From Ruegeria atlantica (lineage in GTDB: Bacteria > Pseudomonadota > Alphaproteobacteria > Rhodobacterales > Rhodobacteraceae), in NCBI RefSeq assembly GCF_001458195.1, contig NZ_CYPU01000013.1, forward strand, positions 1 through 64,000: a DNA stretch of 64,000 bases. The letters are read 5' to 3'. Under the pieces are notes generated by a model. It had not been told where the DNA came from. It did no database searches and saw only the letters and a program-made list of their open reading frames with translations. The position numbers and the translations under genes are program-made. Shown here piece by piece: positions 27,549 to 63,445 of the stretch; positions within the stretch are counted from its first letter, which is position 1; each line of letters opens with the position of its first letter.

Positions 27549-28367
27549 GGGTGCTGTCAGACCAATTCGAACCAGTCTCTGTTTACCCCTAAATGCCGGA
27601 ACTTATGCTGAACAAAGTTGGCGCCACTCGGAGAGAGCAGCGGCGCGGTTGAGCTTGAAATTGTCTCTGCTGTAGAGGGCGCGTTCCTGATTGAAATGGT
27701 TGTAGACGGAAGAATGAACTGCGGCGAACTTCTGCAAACATCGCATTTGCCTGAAGCGGAGCATCGCACGTTCTCGTCGTCGAAATGGCAGATGGGAATT
27801 CTCGGCCCGATTGTTCAGCCAGCGGCCGGTCTTTTGCCGACTACCGTTCCCGACAACTCTCATCGCCGCGCCATAAGACCGCAGTTTGTCCGTCACGATG
27901 GCTTCAGGTTGACCGTAGCGTTTCATTGATTTTCTGAGGAATTTCAACGCAGCTTTGCGGTCACGGCGCTTGGTCACATAACTTTCCAGCACCTCGCCTT
28001 CGTCATCCACAGCCCGCCATAGGTAGTGCGTCTCGCCATTGATCTTCACGAAGACCTCGTCCAGATGCCACTGCCAGTTCGAATAAGACCGCATCCGATT
28101 GACCCTGTTTCTGCGGATCTCTGCCGCGAATATCGGGCCAAATCTGTTCCACCAATAACGCACAGTTTCGTGGCTGATCTCGATGCCGCGCTCGTGCAAA
28201 AGATCTTCAACATTGCGAAGCGAAAGCGGAAACCGAACATACATCATGACGGCCAGACGGATGATCTCGGGGCTCGTCTTGAAGTAGCGAAAAGGGCTGC
28301 GTCTTGTCATCCTGCGACGCTAAGTGCTCGCCCTGCCCGCCTCAAGACAAGTTCTTCTGACAGTGCC
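27549..28367 (-). mobile_element. IS6-family element, type B, apparently intact
   Basis: 819 bp from GGGTGCTGTCAGACCAATTC to AAGTTCTTCTGACAGTGCC. It truncates the PiT gene on its left. No matching 8-bp flanks, so a deletion or recombination probably followed insertion. Confidence 0.9.
27603..28310 (-). CDS. IS6-family transposase, type B
   Basis: 235 residues, full length for the family. HTH region SLRNVEDLLHERGIEISHET, then the DDE catalytic domain: first Asp in QWHLDEVFVKINGE, second Asp in IVTDKLRSYG, Glu in NNRAENSHLPFRRRER. The C-terminus ends FKLNRAAALSEWRQLCSA. Type B differs from type A copies in the NRVNRMRSYSNWQW segment. Carries out replicative transposition and cointegrate formation in this family. 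Confidence 0.95.
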   Translation of the reverse strand: MTRRSPFRYFKTSPEIIRLAVMMYVRFPLSLRNVEDLLHERGIEISHETVRYWWNRFGPIFAAEIRRNRVNRMRSYSNWQWHLDEVFVKINGETHYLWRAVDDEGEVLESYVTKRRDRKAALKFLRKSMKRYGQPEAIVTDKLRSYGAAMRVVGNGSRQKTGRWLNNRAENSHLPFRRRERAMLRFRQMRCLQKFAAVHSSVYNHFNQERALYSRDNFKLNRAAALSEWRQLCSA

Positions 28368-36699: not shown

Positions 36700-37517
36700 G
36701 GTGCTGTCAGACTAATTCGCACCAGTCTCAGTTTACCGCCAAAACCGTGAATCTATCCGGAACAAAGTTGACGCCACTCAGCGAGAGCGGCGGTTTGGTT
36801 GAGCTTGAAATTATCCCTGTTGTAGAGATGGCGCTCCTGGTTGAAATGGTTGTGAACTGAATAGTGGACTGCGGCGAATTTCTGCAAACATCGCATTTGT
36901 CTGAAGCGAAGCATTGCGCGTTCTCGTCGTCGAAACGGCAGGTGAGAATTCTCCGCTCTATTGTTGAGCCAGCGACCGGTTTCCTGCTTTGGCGCGTTGC
37001 CGATGACCGTCATCGCAGCGCCGTAGGATCGGAGTTTGTCCGTAACGATCACTTCTGGATTGCCGTATCGCTTCATTGATTTTTTGAGGAATTTCAATGC
37101 CGCTTTGCGGTCACGGCGCTTGGTCACGTAGCTTTCCAGCACCTCGCCCTCATGATCGACAGCCCGCCACAGGTAATGTGTTTCGCCATTGATCTTCACG
37201 AAGACCTCGTCCAGATGCCACTGCCAATTCGAATAAGATCGCATCCGGCTGACCCTGTTTCTGCGGATCTCAGCCGCGAACATTGGACCAAATCTATTCC
37301 ACCAGAACCGAACAGTTTCGTGGCTGATTTCGATCCCACGCTCGTGCAGAAGGTCCTCGACGTTTCGGAGCGAAAGCAGAAAGCGAACGTACATCATAAC
37401 CGCCAAGCGAATAATTTCTGGACTGGTTTTGAAATAGCGAAAAGGGGAGCGTTTTCTCATCACAGCAGGCTACGAAACGGACCTACCCGCCTCAAGCTGG
37501 TTTCTTTTGACAGTGCC
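36700..37517 (-). mobile_element. IS6-family element, type B
   Basis: 818 bp from GGTGCTGTCAGACTAATTCG to TTTCTTTTGACAGTGCC. It lies between the lacI gene and the semialdehyde dehydrogenase gene and stops 11 bp short of the latter's stop codon, so no gene is visibly cut. No 8-bp duplication seen. Confidence 0.9.
36753..37460 (-). CDS. IS6-family transposase, type B
   Basis: 235 residues from MRKRSPFRYFK (a GTG one codon earlier is not needed). Catalytic residues intact: Asp in QWHLDEVFVKINGE, Asp in VIVTDKLRSYG, Glu in NNRAENSHLPFRRRER. Closest in type to the copy at 27603 but with clear divergence (FLLSLRNVEDLL, RFWWNRFG, NHFNQERHLYNRDNFKLNQ), so it is not a recent duplicate of it. Confidence 0.94.
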   Translation of the reverse strand: MRKRSPFRYFKTSPEIIRLAVMMYVRFLLSLRNVEDLLHERGIEISHETVRFWWNRFGPMFAAEIRRNRVSRMRSYSNWQWHLDEVFVKINGETHYLWRAVDHEGEVLESYVTKRRDRKAALKFLKKSMKRYGNPEVIVTDKLRSYGAAMTVIGNAPKQETGRWLNNRAENSHLPFRRRERAMLRFRQMRCLQKFAAVHYSVHNHFNQERHLYNRDNFKLNQTAALAEWRQLCSG

Positions 37518-45981: not shown

Positions 45982-46801
45982 GGGTGCTGTCAAACGAATT
46001 CGAACCAGTCTCAGCTAGGCCAGCATAGCTGCCCTTTATGCCGCACCAAGTTCGCGCTACTCGGAGAGAGCGGCGGTGCGCGTCAGCTTGAAAGTGTCTC
46101 AGCTGGCTAGCGATCTTTCCTGATTGAAGTGGTTGTAGACGGAAGAATGAACTGCGGCGAACTTCTGCAAACATCGCATTTGCCTGAAGCGGAGCATCGC
46201 ACGTTCTCGTCGTCGAAATGGCAGATGGGAATTCTCGGCCCGATTGTTCAGCCAGCGGCCGGTCTCTTGCCGACTACCGTTCCCGACAACTCTCATCGCC
46301 GCGCCATAAGACCGCAGTTTGTCTGTCACGATGGATTCAGGTTGACCGCAGCGTTTCATTGATTTTCTGAGGAATTTCAACGCAGCTTTGCGGTCACGGC
46401 GCTTGGTCACATAACTTTCCAGCACCTCGCCTTCGTCATCCACAGCCCGCCATAGGTAGTGCGTCTCGCCATTGATCTTCACGAAGACCTCGTCCAGATG
46501 CCACTGCCAGTTCGAATAAGACCGCATCCGATTGACCCTGTTTCTGCGGATCTCTGCCGCGAATATCGGGCCAAGTCTGTTCCACCAATAACGCACAGTT
46601 TCGTGGCTGATCTCGATGCCGCGCTCGTGCAAAAGATCTTCAACATTGCGAAGCGAAAGCGGAAACCGAACATACATCATGACGGCCAGACGGATGATCT
46701 CGGGGCTCGTCTTGAAGTAGCGAAAAGGGCTGCGTCTTGTCATCCTGCGACGCTAAGTGCTCGCCCTGCCCGCCTCAAGACAAGTTCTTCTGACAAGACC
46801 C
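45982..46801 (-). mobile_element. IS6-family element, mosaic of types A and B
   Basis: 820 bp from GGGTGCTGTCAAACGAATTC to AAGTTCTTCTGACAAGACC. Bases 45982 to about 46107 match type A copies (23526, 55204); from about 46148 on the sequence is nearly identical to the type B copy at 27549. The right side cuts an M24 peptidase gene. Confidence 0.9.
46036..46743 (-). pseudogene. IS6-family transposase, truncated by two stops near the C-terminus
   Basis: Begins MTRRSPFRYFK and keeps the DDE residues (QWHLDEVFVKINGE, SIVTDKLRSYG, NRAENSHLPFRRRER). After NHFNQERSLAS the next codon is TGA where type A copies have CGA (Arg), and a TAG replaces a Trp codon further on; the full reading frame would end at 46036. 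The protein made is 214 residues instead of 235. Loss of the last 21 residues may or may not abolish activity. Confidence 0.85.
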
Positions 46802-52949: not shown

Positions 52950-53735
52950 ATGCGCGAGCTAATCAATCTGCAGGATTATCCTTTGGACCGGCCCGGCAGC
53001 CCGGACTGGGTGACCCTAGTCGATAACTGCAAGGCGAAGCTTGCAGAGGACGGCCTGTTCAACTTGGCAGGGTTCATAAACGCAGATGCGCTACCCGAGG
53101 CTGTGGCAGAGCTGAAACCCGTTCTGGAGACGCAGTCTTTCACTCACTCGCGCAAGCACAACATTTACTTCCAGAAAGAGATCGAAGGGCTGCCCGCCGA
53201 CCATCCGGCGTTGACCGAATACGAAACCTCGAACCGCACGATCTGCGCGGATCAGATGGGCCAGGCGGCGGTGATCCGGCTATATGAGTGGCCGCCCTTT
53301 GCAAAATTCCTAGCGTCGGTGATGGACAAGTCGGTGCTATTCACCATGCAGGACCCTTTGGCGCGCGTGAATGTGATGGGGTATCACGAAGGACAGGCGC
53401 TGAACTGGCACTTTGACCGCTCCGAGTTCACCACCACCCTGCTGTTGCAAGCGCCTGAAGTCGGCGGTGAGTTTGAATATGATCAGGATCTGCGTAGTGC
53501 GGATGATCCGAACTATGCCGGTGTGGCCGACTTACTGGAAGGACACCGCAGCCCCAAGCGCATCGTTTTGGAGCCGGGAACGCTCAACATCTTCAAGGGT
53601 AAGAACACGGCCCATCGCGTGACGCCCGTGAAAGGCGATCAGGACAGGATCATTGCCGTCTTTTCCTTTTACGAACGCCCGGGCGTGGAGTTCTCCGAAC
53701 AGGAACGCATCGGCTTTTACGGTCGCGCCGCATGA
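52950..53735 (+). CDS. 2-oxoglutarate-Fe(II) dioxygenase family protein
   Basis: 261 residues from MRELINLQDY, with AGAGGAG ahead; the upstream ATG adds a non-conserved stretch. The iron triad is His154 and Asp156 in LNWHFDRSEF and His222 in KNTAHRVTPV, with Arg233 likely binding 2-oxoglutarate (DQDRIIAVFSFYE). The N-terminal part (GLFNLAGFINADALPEAV) is typical of the prolyl-hydroxylase-like/HalD group that act on free amino acids or small compounds. It overlaps the DddP-like gene by 4 bp, so the two are coupled. Substrate not known. Confidence 0.9.
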   Translation: MRELINLQDYPLDRPGSPDWVTLVDNCKAKLAEDGLFNLAGFINADALPEAVAELKPVLETQSFTHSRKHNIYFQKEIEGLPADHPALTEYETSNRTICADQMGQAAVIRLYEWPPFAKFLASVMDKSVLFTMQDPLARVNVMGYHEGQALNWHFDRSEFTTTLLLQAPEVGGEFEYDQDLRSADDPNYAGVADLLEGHRSPKRIVLEPGTLNIFKGKNTAHRVTPVKGDQDRIIAVFSFYERPGVEFSEQERIGFYGRAA

Positions 53736-54982
53736 GCCCGAACACTGCCTTTAAGGACGATCGCAAGCTCACCTATCTAAACGCCGAGGGCGCAAGCAAA
53801 CCACTGAAAAGCCCGGTCAACGATGATGTATTTACCCGCGCGCGCGCCTATCGATTTGGCCGTTTACGCGCGGCACTGGACCGCTCGGACTGTGCGGCGC
53901 TTTTGCTCTATGACCCCTGCAACATCCGCTATGCATTTGACTGTTCGAACATGCAGGTCTGGACGCTGCATAACCCGATGCGCTACGCGCTTATCTTGGC
54001 AGATGGTCCGGCTATCATGTTCGAATTCAAGGGCTGTCTGCACCAATGCGAGGGCCTGCTTGGCATTGATGAAGTTCGGGTTGCCAGGACCTGGATGTTC
54101 ATGGCTTCGGGCGACAAAGTTGGTGCCGCTACAGACGCTTGGGCCGATGAGATTGCCGGTCTTGTCCGGGAATTTGGCAGCGGCAACACGCGTATTGCCT
54201 GTGACCGTCTGGATGGCAGCGGGGTCTACGCGCTTGAGGCACGCGGGCTGAGCTATGTCGAGGGCACGCAAATGACCGAAATTGCGCGGTCTATCAAATC
54301 TGCAGACGAGATTGAGCTGATGCGCTGGACCGTCCGCGTTTGCGAGGCCGGGATGGCCCGGATCTTCGACCATTCCCATCCCGGTGTTACCGAGCGCGAG
54401 CTGTGGGCGCATCTCCACTTTGAAAACGCCCGCTCCGGTGGTGACTGGTTGGAGACCAAGTTGCTGACATGCGGCCCACGGACCAACCCGTGGTATCAGG
54501 AATGTTCAGACCGAGTGTGCCAGGAAGGTGAGATGATCTCGTTCGATACCGACATGATCGGGCCCTATGGCTATTGTGCCGATCTGTCACGCTCCTGGAC
54601 CTGCGGGTACACCCAGATGAATGACAGGCAACGGCGGCTCTATGACACAGCGTTGGAGCAGATTCATCACAATCTGGACCTTGTGCGCCCAGGCGTGAGC
54701 TTTGATGAATTCAACGACAAAAGCTGGCGCATCCCGGAGGCCCATGTGCCGTACCGCTATTCACTGGCGATCCATGGCGTTGGCATGGCCGATGAATGGC
54801 CGGTGGTGCCGCTGCATGTGGACTGGGGCGCAGGTGCGATGTCAGGGCGTTTTGAGCCTGGTCAAGTTGTCTGCGTGGAGAGTCTGATTGCTGAGGAGGG
54901 CTCGGAAAGCATCAAATTGGAAACCCAGGTCCTCGTGACCGAAACAGGGGCTGAACGGCTGGACAGCTTCCCGTTTGAGTAG
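53732..54982 (+). CDS. DddP-like M24 family protein (possible DMSP lyase)
   Basis: 416 residues. Creatinase-like N-terminal domain, then the metal-binding M24 domain. The sequence follows DddP closely: LLYDPCNIRYAFDCSNMQVW, CGPRTNPWYQECSDRVCQEG and AIHGVGMADEWPVVP. The metal ligands Asp272, Asp274, Asp284, His348, Glu383 and Glu397 line up with those I recall for Ruegeria DddP with an almost constant 23-residue offset, and Asp354 in GMADEWP matches its proposed catalytic Asp377. DMSP cleavage to DMS and acrylate is the family activity; but DddP paralogues with other substrates exist, so the reaction is not certain. Coupled to a 2OG dioxygenase. Confidence 0.88.
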   Translation: MSPNTAFKDDRKLTYLNAEGASKPLKSPVNDDVFTRARAYRFGRLRAALDRSDCAALLLYDPCNIRYAFDCSNMQVWTLHNPMRYALILADGPAIMFEFKGCLHQCEGLLGIDEVRVARTWMFMASGDKVGAATDAWADEIAGLVREFGSGNTRIACDRLDGSGVYALEARGLSYVEGTQMTEIARSIKSADEIELMRWTVRVCEAGMARIFDHSHPGVTERELWAHLHFENARSGGDWLETKLLTCGPRTNPWYQECSDRVCQEGEMISFDTDMIGPYGYCADLSRSWTCGYTQMNDRQRRLYDTALEQIHHNLDLVRPGVSFDEFNDKSWRIPEAHVPYRYSLAIHGVGMADEWPVVPLHVDWGAGAMSGRFEPGQVVCVESLIAEEGSESIKLETQVLVTETGAERLDSFPFE

Positions 54983-55203: not shown

Positions 55204-56022
55204 GGTGCTGTCAGACGAATTCGAACCAGTCTCAGCTAGGCCAGCATAGCTGCCCTTTATGCCGCACCAAGTTCGCGCCACTCGGCAAGAGCGGCGGTGC
55301 GCGTCAGCTTGAAGGTGTCTCGGCTGGCTAGCGATCTTTCCTGATTGAAGTGGTTGTAGACGGAAGAATGGACGGAGGCGAATTTCTGCAAACTTCGCAT
55401 ACGCCTGAAACGCTGCATTGCGCGTTCTCTTCGTCGGAACGGCAGGTGCGAATTCTCAATGCGGTTGTTGAGCCACCTGCCCGTCCTTTGTTTTTCGAGA
55501 GCACCCAATTCTCTTAGAGCAGCCTTGTAGGAAGCGAAGCGGTCGGTGACGATCTTTTCGGCATTGCCGTGCCGCCTCATCAATTTCCTGAGGAATTTCA
55601 GTACCGCAGCTTTGTTTCGGCGTTTGGTGACAACGGCCTCAAGGACTTCACCTTCGTGATCAACTGCACGCCAGAGATAGTGGCGTTTGCCATTCACCTT
55701 CACAAAGACTTCGTCCACGTGCCACTTCCATTTCGAGAACGCGCGCAGCTGCTGCACCCGCTTCCGCCTGATCTCAGCAGCAAACATCGGGCCGAACCTA
55801 TTCCACCAGTATCGGACAGTTTCGTGGCTCACGTCGATGCCTCGCTCGTGCAGTAAATCTTCGACATTCCGAAGCGAGAGTGGAAACCGAATATACAGCA
55901 TCACCGCAAGGCGGATAATCTCAGGGCTGGTTTTGGAGTATTTGAATGAGGCAGGTCTGGTCATGAACAAAAGCTACGCAACCGCCCTACCCCTCTCAAG
56001 CAAAGTTCTTCTGACAAGACCC
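55204..56022 (-). mobile_element. IS6-family element, type A, apparently intact
   Basis: 819 bp from GGTGCTGTCAGACGAATTCG to AAGTTCTTCTGACAAGACC. Both terminal repeats and the transposase frame are complete. No 8-bp duplication is seen. Confidence 0.92.
55257..55964 (-). CDS. IS6-family transposase, type A
   Basis: 235 residues from MTRPASFKYSK. HTH SLRNVEDLLHERGIDVSHET, then DDE residues: Asp in KWHVDEVFVKVNGK, Asp in IVTDRFASYKAA, Glu in NNRIENSHLPFRRRER. Type A segment RVQQLRAFSKWKW. One substitution in the N-terminal region (YSKTSPE where other copies have YFKTSPE). Appears functional and is a potential source of the dead copy at 23580. Confidence 0.95.
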   Translation of the reverse strand: MTRPASFKYSKTSPEIIRLAVMLYIRFPLSLRNVEDLLHERGIDVSHETVRYWWNRFGPMFAAEIRRKRVQQLRAFSKWKWHVDEVFVKVNGKRHYLWRAVDHEGEVLEAVVTKRRNKAAVLKFLRKLMRRHGNAEKIVTDRFASYKAALRELGALEKQRTGRWLNNRIENSHLPFRRRERAMQRFRRMRSLQKFASVHSSVYNHFNQERSLASRDTFKLTRTAALAEWRELGAA

Positions 56023-56493: not shown

Positions 56494-56868
56494 TCAACTT
56501 GTCCGTTGCTTGTAATAGGTGTCCTTGTGGACTATCAGCCCATCACGGTAGGTCAGGATGTCGACGCTCAGAAACTCTTCTTTAGAACCATCCTTATGCG
56601 TCGCGGTGCGGCGGTATTCGCAGTAGGCTTTGTTGCCCGAGATCGCGCAGTCCATGGTTTCCCAATGCACGTTTTCGACTTTTTCGAACAGCGCAGAAAA
56701 TGCACCGCGGATCTTTTCGGCGCCTTCCAGCCGCATGCCATGTTCGTCCGGGCCGACGGCGTGGTCAAATGTGGCGTCGTCTGCGAAATGCTTCATCACT
56801 GCATCGATGTCGTTAGCGTTAAACGCGTCGCCGACAGCGTCGACGAGGGCTCGGGTCAAAGCGGTCAT
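56494..56868 (-). CDS. NTF2-like (SnoaL/nuclear transport factor 2 superfamily) protein
   Basis: 124 residues from MTALTRAL, with AAGGA 9 bases ahead. A small cone-shaped alpha+beta fold: VDAVGDAFNANDIDAVMKHF, DDATFDHAVGPDE, RGAFSALFEKVENVHWETM and EFLSVDILTYRDGLIVHKDT. NTF2-like proteins are ligand-binding or enzymes of many kinds (isomerases, dehydratases, hydrolases). Last gene of the monooxygenase operon; its start overlaps the hydrolase stop by 4 bp, so it is translated together with it. The substrate is unknown. Confidence 0.9.
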   Translation of the reverse strand: MTALTRALVDAVGDAFNANDIDAVMKHFADDATFDHAVGPDEHGMRLEGAEKIRGAFSALFEKVENVHWETMDCAISGNKAYCEYRRTATHKDGSKEEFLSVDILTYRDGLIVHKDTYYKQRTS

Positions 56869-57761
56869 GATTGCGGTCCTTTTCCATGAAGCATATCGCA
56901 AGTGTGTTTGAAGAACGGGCTTGCCTGGTCGACAAGCACATTCAATTCGTCAAAGTGATCGGCGTCCGGGACGATGTACAGGCCGACCTCGCGGTCTGCC
57001 GTCCCAAATTTTTCGACATACATCCGTGCCTGCCGGTGGAATTCATCCGTTTCCGCGCCACCAACAACGACCAGCTGCGGTGCATTTGTAACCGGAGGAT
57101 GGTTGGTCATCGGGCTTTCGGCCTCGGCCTCTTCCGGAGTCAAGCGGATGCCGGAATTGAGCGCCTCAGTCAGACGCACCGGTTCGAGGTAGCTGAGCGG
57201 TGAAACCGGGATGCCGGATTTGATCAGGTCTGTTGGAAGATCCGCTCTGAAAGCAGGCCAATTGGTCGCCATCATCATCTGGGTGATATGGCCGCCAGCC
57301 GAGTGGCCCATCACGGTGATACGGTCTGGATTGATGCCAAAATCGCGCGCGTTGCGCCAGATAAAGGCAATCGCTTCGCGGATTTCTTCGGAAATTCGCG
57401 TGATGGTTACCGATGGGCACAGGTCATAGCCAATGACAACAGTATTGATACCCGACGCGACAAAGGGCGGTGCAATGAAGCTGTAAACCGATTTGTCGCC
57501 GCGCTGCCAGTAGCCGCCATGCACATAAACCAGCGTCGGCGCATCCGCATCCTGACAACGGAAGACATCCAGCTTTTGTTTTTCGCCTTCTCCATAACGG
57601 ATATCGAGACTGCAATCGGTAGAGGCGCGCGCCGACTCGCTGTTGCTGCTCCAACTCGGAATGACAGTGACTTCATAGTCCGGTCGTCCGGCCCGCAGGT
57701 TGTATTGTGCGTCGAATTCATCAGCGCTGAAGCGGGTGTGATAGGTCAGGTGATCGCTCAT
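56865..57761 (-). CDS. Alpha/beta hydrolase (kynurenine-formamidase-like)
   Basis: 298 residues from MSDHLTYHTR. The oxyanion motif HGGYW is at 81-85 and the nucleophile Ser154 in MGHSAGGHITQMM; the C-terminal His lies in PDADHFDEL. This layout (HGGYW, GHSAGG, no lid insertion) is that of arylformamidase/carboxylesterase-like alpha/beta hydrolases. It is coupled to the NTF2-like gene (4-bp overlap) and to the flavin reductase gene (4-bp overlap). Likely hydrolyses an ester, amide or lactone produced by the operon's monooxygenase. Confidence 0.92.
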   Translation of the reverse strand: MSDHLTYHTRFSADEFDAQYNLRAGRPDYEVTVIPSWSSNSESARASTDCSLDIRYGEGEKQKLDVFRCQDADAPTLVYVHGGYWQRGDKSVYSFIAPPFVASGINTVVIGYDLCPSVTITRISEEIREAIAFIWRNARDFGINPDRITVMGHSAGGHITQMMMATNWPAFRADLPTDLIKSGIPVSPLSYLEPVRLTEALNSGIRLTPEEAEAESPMTNHPPVTNAPQLVVVGGAETDEFHRQARMYVEKFGTADREVGLYIVPDADHFDELNVLVDQASPFFKHTCDMLHGKGPQS

Positions 57762-58243
57762 GACGAAGCCTCGGGTTGGGGCGCGGAGAAGAACGTGCCG
57801 CGGCAAAAGACAAGTGGCGGAACGGGCACGTGGGCGTAGTTGATGACGCGGCCCAAGAGAATCTCATGATCGTCTGCGTCGACCTTGCTATGAACCGTGC
57901 ACTCTAATTGCGCTGTGGCGCCGGGGATCAAGGGGGTCGCGGTTCCCGGGGTCCATTCAGTATCGGTAAAGCGGTTTTCGACGTCGCTGGCGAAATGCAT
58001 CGCAAGGTCCTTCTGTTCGGCCGATAGGATATTGACCGCGAAGTGATCCGATTGCGACAGCGTTGGGAAGACCCGGCCTGACTTTGCAACACAAACCGAA
58101 ATCACAGGCGGCTCTAACGAGACCGAGGTGAACGAATTGGCGGTCAGGCCCCACGGTTCACCGTCCGCGTCATAGGTGGCTACGATGGTAACACCCGTCG
58201 GAAAGGCGCCAAGGGCACGGCGATAGTCCCGGACGTCCATCAT
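57758..58243 (-). CDS. Flavin reductase domain protein
   Basis: 161 residues. Start MMDVRDYR is right at the GST stop (TATGATG, overlapping). Flavin reductase fold: ALGAFPTGVTIVATYDADGE, PWGLTANSFTSVSLEPPVIS, VNILSAEQKDLAMHFA, LECTVHSKVDADDHEILLGR. In two-component monooxygenases the reductase supplies reduced FMN or FAD to the oxygenase; here the neighbouring LLM-family gene is the evident partner. No other flavin-reductase gene is in the window. Confidence 0.93.
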   Translation of the reverse strand: MMDVRDYRRALGAFPTGVTIVATYDADGEPWGLTANSFTSVSLEPPVISVCVAKSGRVFPTLSQSDHFAVNILSAEQKDLAMHFASDVENRFTDTEWTPGTATPLIPGATAQLECTVHSKVDADDHEILLGRVINYAHVPVPPLVFCRGTFFSAPQPEASS

Positions 58244-58917
58244 AGAGCCCCTTCGCTGGAGCAGGCTTTTTCCAGCGCAGCCCATTCATCGGGGTTGGTC
58301 CCGAAATGACGCATGACGTGATCTTGATAGGCGGGACGTTCCGCCAGCCGCTGATACCAGGCCTCGACGTTCGGCAAGGGCGGGCGGGCGACCTCGACGT
58401 TGAAATAACGATAGGCCACGCACCCCAGGGGAATATCCGCCATGGTAAAGCTGTCGCCGCAGACATAGGCCTTATCCGCGAGGTGCTGATTCAGAATGGT
58501 CAGGGCTTCATGCGCTTCATCGCGCAGCTTGGCGATCTTTTCCGGGTCACGCTGATCAGGTTGAGTGCGCACGGTTGCAAAGAACAGGTAGATGACAGGC
58601 CCAAAGGCGTGGCTGGCCGACCACTCCATCCATTGATCCGCTATCGCTCGGGTCTGAATGTCGGACGGGCTGAGCGTTCCTGCGCCGTACCGGTCACAGA
58701 GATAGCGAACGATGGCAAGGCTTTCCCACAACGCAAAATCCCCGTCGCGGATCGCTGGGATCATTCTGTTGGGATTGATCTGCGAATACATCTCGGTGTC
58801 GAGCTTGCCAAAGCTGCCCCCGGCCAGTTGCAGCGTGTAGTCCAGCCCCAGCTCATTCGCCGTCCAAATCACGGGAATGACGTTCGATGAATAGGGGCGC
58901 CCCCAAATCTCAAGCAT
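58240..58917 (-). CDS. Glutathione S-transferase family protein
   Basis: 225 residues from MLEIWGRPYSS. Thioredoxin-like N-terminal domain with Ser at the usual catalytic position (GRPYSSNVIP), the glutathione-binding cis-Pro region NPNRMIPAI and the ESLAIVRYLCDRYG motif; helical C-terminal domain with FTMADIPLGCVAYR. Starts inside the last codons of the LLM gene and ends on the flavin reductase start. In a catabolic operon it may open a ring epoxide, remove a halogen or isomerise a maleyl-type intermediate. The reaction cannot be read from sequence. Confidence 0.93.
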   Translation of the reverse strand: MLEIWGRPYSSNVIPVIWTANELGLDYTLQLAGGSFGKLDTEMYSQINPNRMIPAIRDGDFALWESLAIVRYLCDRYGAGTLSPSDIQTRAIADQWMEWSASHAFGPVIYLFFATVRTQPDQRDPEKIAKLRDEAHEALTILNQHLADKAYVCGDSFTMADIPLGCVAYRYFNVEVARPPLPNVEAWYQRLAERPAYQDHVMRHFGTNPDEWAALEKACSSEGAL

Positions 58918-60100
58918 GCTCCAGCATCCTTTTCTGGGCGATGGACTGCGTGCCGAACCGGGGCACAACATGCTCGAACAGACGATGCCAACTGGCCAGG
59001 ATTTTCTCATAGGGTACGCCGGTATATTGCTGCATCAGCATAAGGTGATCTAGGCCGATGGTTTCCTGCCGCTCTGCAAACCGATCCGCGACATATTCGG
59101 CGTCGCCCACCACGATGATCCCGCGTTTGTTGAGGAAATCGAACCAATCCATGTCCTCATCTTCGGAAGACATTTCTTCGCCGACATCCAGATAGCCGTG
59201 CTTGGTCCATTCCCCCTTGGGACGCGACCCGCCGAGGAATTCGTAATAGGCATTGATCGGGCCACGGATCGTGTTCACCGCTTCTTCCATGCTTTCACCA
59301 ACATAAAAAGCCGTGCAGACACCAACACCTTCGCCAAGCTTCACCTCACGCCCTTCGCGTTGCGACAGGGCTTGGCGATAGGGTTCCCAACAGGCCAGCG
59401 TCGCCTTGGGGCCAGCTGCCATCGAGATCACACCCCAACCGCGCTCCCCCGCCAATTTGAACGTGGGCGGTGCGTTCGACATCAGCCAGACCGGCGGATG
59501 AGGATTGGAATAGGGGCGCGGATGCACATACATCGCTTTGTATTCGCCATCTTCATCGTGATAACGCGGGTCCAGAGGGTCAAAGAACCGGTTGGTCTCT
59601 TTCCAGCCGGGCACAGGGAACTGATAGAATTCGCCGTGATGGGTGAAGGCCTCATTGGTCCAGGCTTTCAGGATGATCTCAAGACTCTCCTGATACAGCC
59701 GCATCACCTTGGCATTGTCGCGCCGATCCGCATCTGCGTTGAACTGGATGGTTGAGCGTTCATTGATGCCCTTGGCCACGCCGAAATCAAACCGGCCTTG
59801 GGTCATGTTATCAAGCATCGCGGCATCTTCAGCCACGCGCAGGGGGTGCCAATCGGACAGGATGATGGGGGCTGTTCCGACCCGGAGTTTTTTGCAATGC
59901 GCAGCTATGTGAGTCCCCATCTGGATCGGGTTGGGCGGCGCATTCATGTAACCGTTATGGGCAAAATGATGCTCGGTGAACCAAGCAGTTGTGAAACCTG
60001 CCTGCTCGGTCAGCGAACACTGTTCGAGGATCATTTCCAGCGTGCGCGCCCAGGGAATCGTCTCACCAGGGCTAAAATTGGCAATCAAATCAAAGCGCAT
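58910..60100 (-). CDS. LLM class flavin-dependent oxygenase (luciferase-like monooxygenase)
   Basis: 396 residues. Family blocks: MRFDLIANFSPGE, FTTAWFTEHHFAHNGYMNAP, LRVGTAPIILSDWHPLRVAE, GRFDFGVAKGINERSTIQF, PPVWLMSNAPPTFKLAGERG, GVGVCTAFYVGESMEEAVNT, IGLDHLMLMQQYTGVPYEKI. A TIM-barrel FMN-dependent monooxygenase, the oxygenase component of a two-component system with the flavin reductase encoded two genes downstream. First gene of the operon, divergent from the XRE-cupin regulator with AGTTGA repeats between. The substrate is unassigned. Confidence 0.93.
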   Translation of the reverse strand: MRFDLIANFSPGETIPWARTLEMILEQCSLTEQAGFTTAWFTEHHFAHNGYMNAPPNPIQMGTHIAAHCKKLRVGTAPIILSDWHPLRVAEDAAMLDNMTQGRFDFGVAKGINERSTIQFNADADRRDNAKVMRLYQESLEIILKAWTNEAFTHHGEFYQFPVPGWKETNRFFDPLDPRYHDEDGEYKAMYVHPRPYSNPHPPVWLMSNAPPTFKLAGERGWGVISMAAGPKATLACWEPYRQALSQREGREVKLGEGVGVCTAFYVGESMEEAVNTIRGPINAYYEFLGGSRPKGEWTKHGYLDVGEEMSSEDEDMDWFDFLNKRGIIVVGDAEYVADRFAERQETIGLDHLMLMQQYTGVPYEKILASWHRLFEHVVPRFGTQSIAQKRMLEHA

Positions 60101-60125
60101 AACGTTCTCCCGGCCGGTAGAAGAA

Positions 60126-60185
60126 TAGTTGATTTTTCATCTCATTTTCAACTAAGTTGATTTGCGCTCGAAAAGTCAACTGAAA
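60126..60185. promoter_or_regulatory. Operator region with AGTTGA/TCAACT repeats
   Basis: TCAACTAAGTTGA (60147-60159) is a perfect dyad with one central base. A further AGTTGATTT lies at 60126-60134 and AGTCAACTGAAAT at about 60174-60186. All sit in the 102-bp gap shared by the LLM operon and the XRE-cupin gene, so the regulator probably binds here and controls both directions. Confidence 0.7.
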
Positions 60186-60202
60186 TCATTTATTCTGAAG
60201 TC

Positions 60203-60820
60203 ATGAAAAATGACGTGTCTCAGACCGACGCCCAAAGGCTCGGAAGTGAAATTCGCGAAGTGCGCAAAGCACGTGGGCTGACCCTACAGCACTTGTCCGA
60301 AGTGGTGTTGTGTTCCAAAGCCTATCTCAGCCGGATTGAGCTTGGGACAGCTAAGGTGTCGGACGACCTACTTGGCGAAATCAGCGATGCGCTTGCGGTT
60401 GACCCGGGCTGGTTCTTTCCCAAACAGGAGGGCGACGGACCGCTGGAGCGAAAGCACGTCGTGCGCCGCGAGAACCGTAGGGCGCTGTCCGCGATGTATA
60501 CGCGCTCAACTGATGAATTAGGCTTTGAGGACGAATTGCTTTCAAGCTCCTTGTCCGGCCATTGTTACTTGATCCTATCACGGTTCCGCCCCGGCGCAGG
60601 AGAACCGCCCGAGCCACTGGAAGGGTATTCATTTGAAGGTGAACAACACGCCATCGTCCTTAGCGGCGAAGTTGAGCTACGTCTCGGGAGCGAAGTCATT
60701 TCATTGCGTGAAGGAGACAGCTTTTCCTATCCATCCATGATCGCCCACCGCTTTCGCAACAAGACTGAGAAAGAAGCCACAATGGTCTGGGCGATGTCGC
60801 CGATCCGTATCACGTGGTGA
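60203..60820 (+). CDS. XRE-cupin transcriptional regulator
   Basis: 205 residues. HTH_3 domain (about 12-68): LGSEIREVRKARGLTLQHLS, KAYLSRIELGTAKVSDDLL. C-terminal cupin_2 (about 130-195): FEGEQHAIVLSGEVELRLG and GDSFSYPSMIAHRFRNKTEK. Regulators of this build commonly respond to small organic metabolites. It is divergent from the LLM operon and the shared gap has a clear palindrome, so it is the operon's regulator by context. No ribosome site is obvious, the gene may be weakly translated. Confidence 0.93.
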   Translation: MKNDVSQTDAQRLGSEIREVRKARGLTLQHLSEVVLCSKAYLSRIELGTAKVSDDLLGEISDALAVDPGWFFPKQEGDGPLERKHVVRRENRRALSAMYTRSTDELGFEDELLSSSLSGHCYLILSRFRPGAGEPPEPLEGYSFEGEQHAIVLSGEVELRLGSEVISLREGDSFSYPSMIAHRFRNKTEKEATMVWAMSPIRITW

Positions 60821-62626: not shown

Positions 62627-63445
62627 GGTGCTGTCAGACGAATTCGAACCAGTCTCAGTTTGCCGCAGAAACCGTGAACCTATCCGGAACAAAGTTGACG
62701 CCACTCGCTAAGTGCGGCGGCGCGGGTCAGCTTGAAGGTGTCTCGGCTGGCTAGCGATCTTTCCTGGTTGAAGTGGTTGAATACGGAGGAATGGACGGAA
62801 GCGAATTTCTGTAAACTTCGCATGCGCCTGAAACGTTGCATAGCGCGTTCTCGTCGTCGAAACGGCAGGTGCGAATTCTCAACCCGGTTGTTAAGCCACC
62901 TGCCCGTCTGCTGTTTTTCCAGAGCGCCCAAATCTCTGAGCGCAGCCTTGTAGGATGCGAAGCGATCTGTGACTACTTCTTCAGCTTTGCCGTGGCGTTT
63001 CACTAATTTCTTAAGAAATTTCAACGCTGCAGCTTTGTTTCGGCGTTTGGTGACAACCGCTTCCAACACTTCACCTTCGTGATCGACCGCACGCCAGAGA
63101 TAGTGGCGTTTGCCATTCACCTTCACAAAGACCTCGTCCACGTGCCACTTCCATTTTGAAAAGGCTCGGAGTTGCTGAACACGCTTTCGTCTGATCTCGG
63201 CAGCAAACATTGGGCCAAACCTGTTCCACCAATATCGGACAGTTTCGTGGCTCACGTCGATGCCTCGCTCATGCAGCAGATCTTCGACATTCCGAAGCGA
63301 GAGTGGAAACCGAATATACAGCATCACCGCCAGGCGGATGATCTCAGGACTGGTTTTGAAGTACTTGAAGGTGGCAGGTTTGGTCATTCCTAAATGCTAT
63401 GCACCCGCCCTGCCCCGCTCAAGCAAAGTTCTTCTGACAAGACCT
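62627..63445 (-). mobile_element. IS6-family element, type A, apparently intact
   Basis: 819 bp from GGTGCTGTCAGACGAATTCG to AAGTTCTTCTGACAAGACC. Both ends and the transposase are complete. No 8-bp duplication seen. Confidence 0.92.
62680..63387 (-). CDS. IS6-family transposase, type A
   Basis: 235 residues from MTKPATFKYFK. HTH SLRNVEDLLHERGIDVSHET; DDE residues: Asp in KWHVDEVFVKVNGK, Asp in VVTDRFASYKAA, Glu in NNRVENSHLPFRRRER. Type A segment RVQQLRAFSKWKW. C-terminus SEWRQLCSG as in the fragment at 54995. Looks functional. Confidence 0.95.
   Translation of the reverse strand: MTKPATFKYFKTSPEIIRLAVMLYIRFPLSLRNVEDLLHERGIDVSHETVRYWWNRFGPMFAAEIRRKRVQQLRAFSKWKWHVDEVFVKVNGKRHYLWRAVDHEGEVLEAVVTKRRNKAAALKFLKKLVKRHGKAEEVVTDRFASYKAALRDLGALEKQQTGRWLNNRVENSHLPFRRRERAMQRFRRMRSLQKFASVHSSVFNHFNQERSLASRDTFKLTRAAALSEWRQLCSG

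Follow-up and report, generated by a model that had tools for sequence, protein, structure and literature searches.

A conserved operon headed by a luciferase-like monooxygenase in Ruegeria atlantica: a possible catabolic cassette of marine bacteria

Several described bacterial systems share some of their enzymes with the locus studied here, a run of five overlapping genes with a divergent regulator (positions 56494–60820) in a stretch of 64 000 nucleotides from Ruegeria atlantica (contig NZ_CYPU01000013.1, positions 1–64 000; hereafter the window). The operon encodes a luciferase-like flavin-dependent monooxygenase (LLM), a glutathione S-transferase (GST), a flavin reductase, an alpha/beta hydrolase and an NTF2-like protein. 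Our best reading is that it represents a new catabolic variant assembled from known enzyme families, with a substrate that is only proposed. The Rut system likewise combines an oxygenase of the LLM family with a RutF-type flavin reductase and an alpha/beta hydrolase. In the indole operons ind and iif a flavin oxygenase, a flavin reductase and a GST stand together, but the oxygenase is of another family. Bacterial luciferase and 3,6-diketocamphane monooxygenase share the fold branch of the LLM but only 14–20% identity with it in the listed structure alignments, and we know of no such operon context for either. A marine homarine operon, homABCDER, was reportedly described by Ferrer-Gonzalez et al., with SAR11 among its carriers; it would likewise comprise five enzymes and a regulator, and it is linked to N-methylglutamate metabolism. 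In the Tgn pathway of trigonelline an N-formyl group is hydrolysed after ring opening, dehydrogenases are used and neither a GST nor an NTF2-like protein takes part. A passage of PMC8269262 assigns the opening of the ring to TgnA/TgnB. No publication fitting the gene combination of the operon was found, as judged by titles or the first lines of abstracts.

All five enzyme genes lie on the reverse strand. The first encodes the LLM (58910–60100, 396 amino acids), which matches the Pfam profile PF00296 (Bac_luciferase) with 158 bits against a gathering score of 27.9. It is followed by the GST (58240–58917, 225 amino acids, GST_N/GST_C), the flavin reductase (57758–58243, 161 amino acids, PF01613 Flavin_Reduct, 142 bits), the hydrolase (56865–57761, 298 amino acids, Abhydrolase_3/BD-FAE) and the NTF2/SnoaL-like protein (56494–56868, 124 amino acids, PF12680 SnoaL_2, 65 bits). 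The successive overlaps measure 8, 4, 4 and 4 bp. The regulator, an XRE-cupin protein of 205 amino acids (60203–60820, forward strand, HTH_3 and Cupin_2), is separated from the LLM gene by a gap of 102 bp (60101–60202). This layout agrees with the first-pass annotation, which had described the overlapping genes, the divergent regulator and the length of the gap.

In the NCBIfam profile search none of the six proteins reached a curated cut-off, and therefore none has a curated function. There is neither a transporter nor a dehydrogenase among the six genes, including the aldehyde dehydrogenase that is a trait of the Tgn operon. The locus had also been distinguished from the Rut and alkanesulfonate (Ssu) systems, and the profile scores bear this out: the 25 NCBIfam models hit by the LLM include neither RutA nor SsuD, those hit by the hydrolase do not include RutD, and the flavin reductase scores 74.2 bits with RutF, the cut-off being 254.75. 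Membership in both systems was rejected on these scores, together, for Ssu, with the lack of a transporter.

Conservation of the operon and its operator

When 84 980 species genomes were scanned with the LLM as query, 76 loci resulted (loci are designated L and genomes G): 41 tight relatives (L022–L062) and 35 distant ones at 22–35% identity. Of the tight relatives, 40 are 76–97% identical over at least 384 of the 396 residues, and L062 is a fragment at a contig edge with 90% identity. Their hosts are Alpha- and Gammaproteobacteria; the carrier lineages include Ruegeria, Marivita, Planktomarina, HTCC2255, HTCC2083 and SAR116, and the genera named are marine; Ruegeria denitrificans CECT 5091 and Marivita geojedonensis DPG-138 are among the carriers that can be cultured. 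The LLM and hydrolase genes are present in all 41 loci, the GST gene in 40, the NTF2 gene in 39, the divergent XRE-cupin gene in 33 and the flavin reductase gene in 22. Some of the absences possibly result from contig edges (upstream in L052, L053 and L062; downstream in L052). The first-pass annotation would have been contradicted had the genes rarely been found together elsewhere; the same gene order in 41 relatives speaks strongly against such rarity, and a chance gathering of the genes was rejected on this ground.

The unit has a dispensable part, the flavin reductase. In a SAR116 genome record (L046:4817–5086), only a shortened remnant of its gene remains, between the GST and hydrolase genes. 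In L050 the GST gene does not lie between the LLM and hydrolase genes, which are about 80 bp apart. The earlier description of the five genes as a complete route could not be upheld, as the flavin reductase is missing from 19 of the 41 relatives and the GST from one, and the unit comprises no transporter or dehydrogenase; its suggested succession of oxygenation, glutathione-dependent step, hydrolysis and rearrangement is conjectural. In HTCC2083 (L041:13126–14085) a 320-amino-acid SnoaL-domain protein is encoded directly after the NTF2 gene.

Among 148 related genomes, 13, including that of the window, carry the LLM, and all belong to the genus of the window (one of 95 genera). Of 385 genomes sampled from the class, only the window's own and one other have the tight type. 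Plasmid records gave 904 matches to the LLM, all below 60% identity, the best among the matches listed being 27.5%. In the stretches searched around the distant LLM relatives (the 35 scan loci and the loci of the class sample) the only partner gene was a flavin reductase next to the LLM in L106 and L154, and these relatives therefore give no clue to the function.

The gap between the regulator and LLM genes contains the dyad TCAACTAAGTTGA (60148–60160) and, 15 nt from it on either side, two outer half-sites (60128–60132 and 60176–60180), which agrees with the perfect dyad and further half-sites reported for it before. We compared 34 intergenic regions, those of the window and 33 relatives, themselves related to each other. 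The dyad is kept within two mismatches in 27 of them, the half-site corresponding to 60176–60180 (left in the array) at the same spacing in 29, and that corresponding to 60128–60132 (right) in 28. The complete array, GTTGA-N15-TCAACTNAGTTGA-N15-TCAAC with at most two mismatches in its centre, is found in 22 of the 34. It appeared in none of 6800 single-letter shuffles, a zero that is not a probability, as the control is of this single-letter kind and the regions are related. The perfect dyad occurs only once, at 60148–60160, in the window's own genome of 4.8 Mb. This uniqueness and the conservation of the array in relatives indicate more than chance, and a chance origin of the operator was rejected.

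In ten of the 13 same-genus carriers the dyad occurs exactly once, and this copy is the one at the operon. G039 and G013 have three copies each, with one at the operon in G039 and none there in G013, and G016 lacks the dyad altogether. The control pattern, the dyad read backwards, is present in one of the 13 genomes. Since the dyad occurs once, at the operon, in most of these carriers, the XRE-cupin regulator looks local. Away from the operon, dyads with a G/C centre are found in pairs, 2.7 kb apart in G039 (L171, L173) and 4.0 kb apart in G013 (L172, L174, L176); the off-operon dyads of these two genomes are perhaps targets of another regulator. The outer half-sites might instead be −35 elements of the two divergent promoters; a simple scan gave a single promoter-like site, where shuffled sequences gave 0.3 on average. 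L039, L050 and L058 have the regulator and neither outer half-site at the 15-nt spacing. Of seven loci examined that have no adjacent XRE-cupin gene, L052–L055 and L059 have no array, and L043 and L046 have a partial one.

Flanking genes, apparent mobility and a sister operon

The conserved unit stands in unshared surroundings. Outside the six genes one ABC-type ATPase family is found in nine of the 41 loci, and every other clustered family in at most four. Because the flanking genes are hardly shared, the unit seems to travel horizontally as one cassette. The LLM tree (the window, 40 relatives and two outgroups) has 24 of its 40 inner branches without strong support. Among its groups, the SAR116 copy joins four Rhodobacterales copies (support 100/98) and Hoeflea joins Kiloniellaceae (97/89), and seven gammaproteobacterial rows form a group of their own (99/97), the eighth, L042, standing apart.

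In the window, the operon is bracketed by two like insertion sequences in the manner of a composite transposon, as read from their like same-strand transposase genes alone. The left transposase gene, an open reading frame at 55257–55964 (reverse strand) that we take to be IS6/IS26-like, matches DNA at 44 further sites of the genome (query, its part from 55700 on). The right one, an open reading frame at 62680–63387 of the same kind and orientation, shows 89% identity over 326 bases. Like transposase genes are also found at 27603–28310, 36753–37463 and 46099–46743, within the region 23892–63387. Between these genes sugar-transport, TctABC-type transport and M24 peptidase genes were recognized by eye, which gives the contig the appearance of a mosaic of mobile cassettes. 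A gene for a 261-amino-acid protein and then one for a putative M24 peptidase (52950–54982) lie shortly before the left insertion sequence.

For 26 of the 41 loci the flanking genes were read by eye, and profiles were run on a few of the proteins. In L034 the NTF2 gene is followed by genes for a BCCT-like protein (TIGR00842, 383 bits, just under the cut-off of 408) and a succinate-semialdehyde dehydrogenase (TIGR01780, 705 bits, cut-off 646). In L044, L047 and L062 a DadA-like oxidase gene comes next (the L047 copy scores 211 bits, cut-off 383), accompanied by genes recognized by eye as those of TRAP transporters. The flank of L056 encodes an M24 peptidase and a protein resembling arylmalonate decarboxylase/EutA, and genes resembling those of betaine demethylation enzymes were seen by eye in the flanks of L048 and L059. 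The neighbours of many other loci are unrelated.

An LLM relative is present in 49 of 147 genomes of the order of genome G188. This order is probably SAR11, to judge from its small genomes, a GC content of 29–35% in the stretches retrieved and the rhodopsin gene of G188. In each of the 11 neighbourhoods examined from this order (L138–L148), a stretch of about 6 kb contains genes for the LLM, an AA_synth protein (PF06684), an aldehyde dehydrogenase and a hydrolase of another kind; L153 and L154 likewise have these four together. The LLM of this sister operon is about 33–34% identical to that of the window, and the nearest model of its hydrolase is 3-oxoadipate enol-lactonase, under the cut-off. 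In both operons the LLM heads a short catabolic operon with a hydrolase, but the SAR11-type operon has another hydrolase, and an aldehyde dehydrogenase and AA_synth in place of the GST and NTF2-like protein. The GST, hydrolase and regulator profiles of the window operon have no match in the 11 neighbourhoods, and the NTF2 profile has one weak match (E = 7e-4), 6 kb off, in L148. In the 148 relatives the SAR11-type LLM was not found, only that of the window operon at E ≤ 1e-60, and the 17 genomes of the order of G095 gave no LLM match. A thiamine-diphosphate enzyme is also encoded in L144 and L146, and in L140 a divergent Asp/Glu-racemase-like gene is present with an M24 peptidase.

Enzymes, proposed function and rival explanations

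The predicted model of the LLM has middling confidence (pLDDT 72.7, pTM 0.77). Among the 50 folds listed, its nearest are Atu2307, RslO1 and LuxA; 3,6-diketocamphane monooxygenase is seventh, RcaE ranks 47 and SsuD 49. By predicted fold the LLM is like luciferase and the type II Baeyer–Villiger monooxygenases, and LuxA also ranks first in the sequence-profile comparison with solved proteins. Because the model is middling and identity to the best 50 folds listed is at most 21%, the substrate class is not readable from the fold. The LLM alignment comprises 23 rows. In the GST, S10, S11, P54, E65 and S66, presumably the usual glutathione-site positions, are invariant in 23 aligned rows. The hydrolase model (pLDDT 86) is nearest to Lipase 1 of Pseudomonas chlororaphis, the uncharacterized TM1040_2492 and the kynurenine formamidase of Drosophila; no solved sequence besides these three matches it at E ≤ 1e-15 (4e11 at E = 1.9e-28). 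Its HGGYW (81–85), GHSAGG with S154, and H269 are invariant in 24 aligned rows, and it has the HGGxW motif, GxSxG serine and catalytic histidine of kynurenine formamidase-like hydrolases. As the closest match is Lipase 1, an esterase and a formamidase appear equally open from the sequence. Among solved proteins the NTF2-like profile matches just one, a putative polyketide cyclase, and that weakly (E = 5e-4).

Genes of methylated-amine metabolism give another indication. In G016 an island of such genes directly adjoins the operon (L178:2991–14436, contig C7; the same place as L036). It contains an XRE-cupin gene, a dmmDABC-like set (HODM/DmmC-like, ferredoxin-reductase, DmmA-like with 111 bits against a cut-off of 60, and GcvT-like genes), a gene resembling those of ammonium transporters, mgsABC-like genes (so named for their resemblance) and, with 655 bits against a cut-off of 470, a type III glutamine synthetase/GMAS-like gene. 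Co-occurrence was assessed in 44 genomes: 13 same-genus carriers, 20 listed same-genus non-carriers and 11 carriers outside the genus. The markers were an MgsC-like protein at E < 1e-220 and TIGR03105 above its cut-off, a family named type III glutamine synthetase that we take to include GMAS. Both markers agree, being present in 11 of the 13 same-genus carriers against seven of the 20 non-carriers, and in nine of the 11 carriers outside the genus. The methylamine route of R. pomeroyi is given in a section of PMC13390433 as dmmDABC, gmaS-mgsABC and mgdABCD, under an AraC-type regulator. A link between the operon and N-methylated amine metabolism is supported but weak. Several observations count against it. 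The within-genus association (Fisher p = 0.011) comes from a test that ignores phylogeny. In the stretches of the 41 loci the amine island stands beside the operon in one only, L035 having just the island's second XRE-cupin gene. Both markers are absent from the window's own genome, from G027 (89% complete) and from the genomes of L034 and L049, the last of which has a 54% relative of the MgsC-like protein.

We tentatively propose that the operon is a catabolic cassette that spreads horizontally and serves the breakdown of a single small marine metabolite, with an N-methylated betaine-like heterocycle as the foremost possibility and the pyridinium carboxylates homarine and trigonelline as the best candidates. 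This reading rests on the conserved unit and operator, the unshared flanks, the grouping of the SAR116 and Hoeflea copies in the LLM tree, the nearness of the hydrolase to kynurenine formamidase, the catabolic neighbours in L034 and L047 and the methylamine co-occurrence; the last, with the adjacency in one genome, points to an N-methylated substrate. The XRE-cupin protein would sit on the operator array and keep the two divergent promoters shut off, and binding of the substrate or of a product by its cupin domain would lift the block. Reduced flavin mononucleotide, from the operon's reductase or any host reductase, would serve the LLM, which might open the ring to an aldehyde and an N-formyl (or ester) group. 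In Tgn, too, a flavin-fed oxygenase opens an N-methylpyridinium ring. The kynurenine-formamidase-like hydrolase could then take off the formyl (or acyl) group, and the GST with glutathione and the NTF2-like isomerase could rearrange the reactive aldehyde or enamine with no external dehydrogenase. The product may be an amino acid or a methylamine, which hosts with an N-methylglutamate route could channel into it. A bolder version, which we consider unlikely, is an undescribed, horizontally spread marine pathway in which the luciferase-type oxygenase opens an N-methylated heterocycle, and the GST and NTF2-like isomerase perform a redox-neutral aldehyde-to-acid rearrangement that replaces the aldehyde dehydrogenase of the SAR11-type operon and feeds the N-methylglutamate route.

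By fold and sequence the neighbours of the LLM are luciferase and diketocamphane monooxygenase, enzymes acting on aldehydes and ketones, and among solved structures a lipase is closest to the hydrolase; these points also weigh against a heterocyclic substrate. They favour a type II Baeyer–Villiger route, in which oxygen would be inserted by the LLM into a terpenoid or algal compound, either a cyclic ketone or an aldehyde; the hydrolase would then open the resulting lactone or ester, and the GST and NTF2-like protein would process the product. Such a route leaves the co-occurrence with methylamine genes unexplained, and the ranking of folds that suggests it comes from the model and identities whose limits are given above; we regard it as doubtful. 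The presence of GST and LLM, families that often act on xenobiotics, in a transporterless cassette isolated between insertion sequences would also suit a detoxification or redox-stress operon, with the two enzymes neutralizing a reactive electrophile, assisted by the hydrolase and NTF2-like protein, and no growth pathway. This is the least probable of the explanations considered: the dedicated ligand-type regulator, a gene order kept over two classes, and the transporter and oxidase genes right after NTF2 in some loci look catabolic.

It is also rather improbable that the operon is the homABCDER operon of Ferrer-Gonzalez et al. (2026), and hence already known. Five enzyme genes and one regulator fit that name, and Rhodobacterales and SAR116 are said to be among its carriers, as they are here. 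A hand check of formulae gives homarine + O2 + 2 H2O + 2[H] = N-methylglutamate + formate, so that no dehydrogenase would be needed beyond the flavin step. The identity is weakened by the LLM relatives in the presumed SAR11 order, which have other partners in the neighbourhoods examined, and by the failure to find that LLM type in the 148 relatives, and raised a little by the methylamine link, Mgd being cited in a passage of PMC13390433 as taking part in homarine catabolism. Also against the identity, the LLM scan gave no R. pomeroyi locus (the presence of that genome among those scanned is unconfirmed, and a 4-kb piece of its megaplasmid matched none of 293 relatives), though R. pomeroyi draws homarine down: its homarine use is rapid in one study, according to part of PMC12817926, and its growth on homarine is poorer than on trigonelline in another, according to part of PMC8269262.

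The cassette is present in abundant or well-studied marine lineages, and under the proposed catabolic reading its substrate is likely to be either homarine or a common seawater metabolite to which no degrader has been assigned. With its conserved operator and its own regulator, the operon offers a direct way to that substrate: whichever compound frees the regulator from its site should be the substrate itself or a product close to it. Whether glutathione chemistry can take the place of an aldehyde dehydrogenase would emerge from a comparison with the SAR11-type operon.

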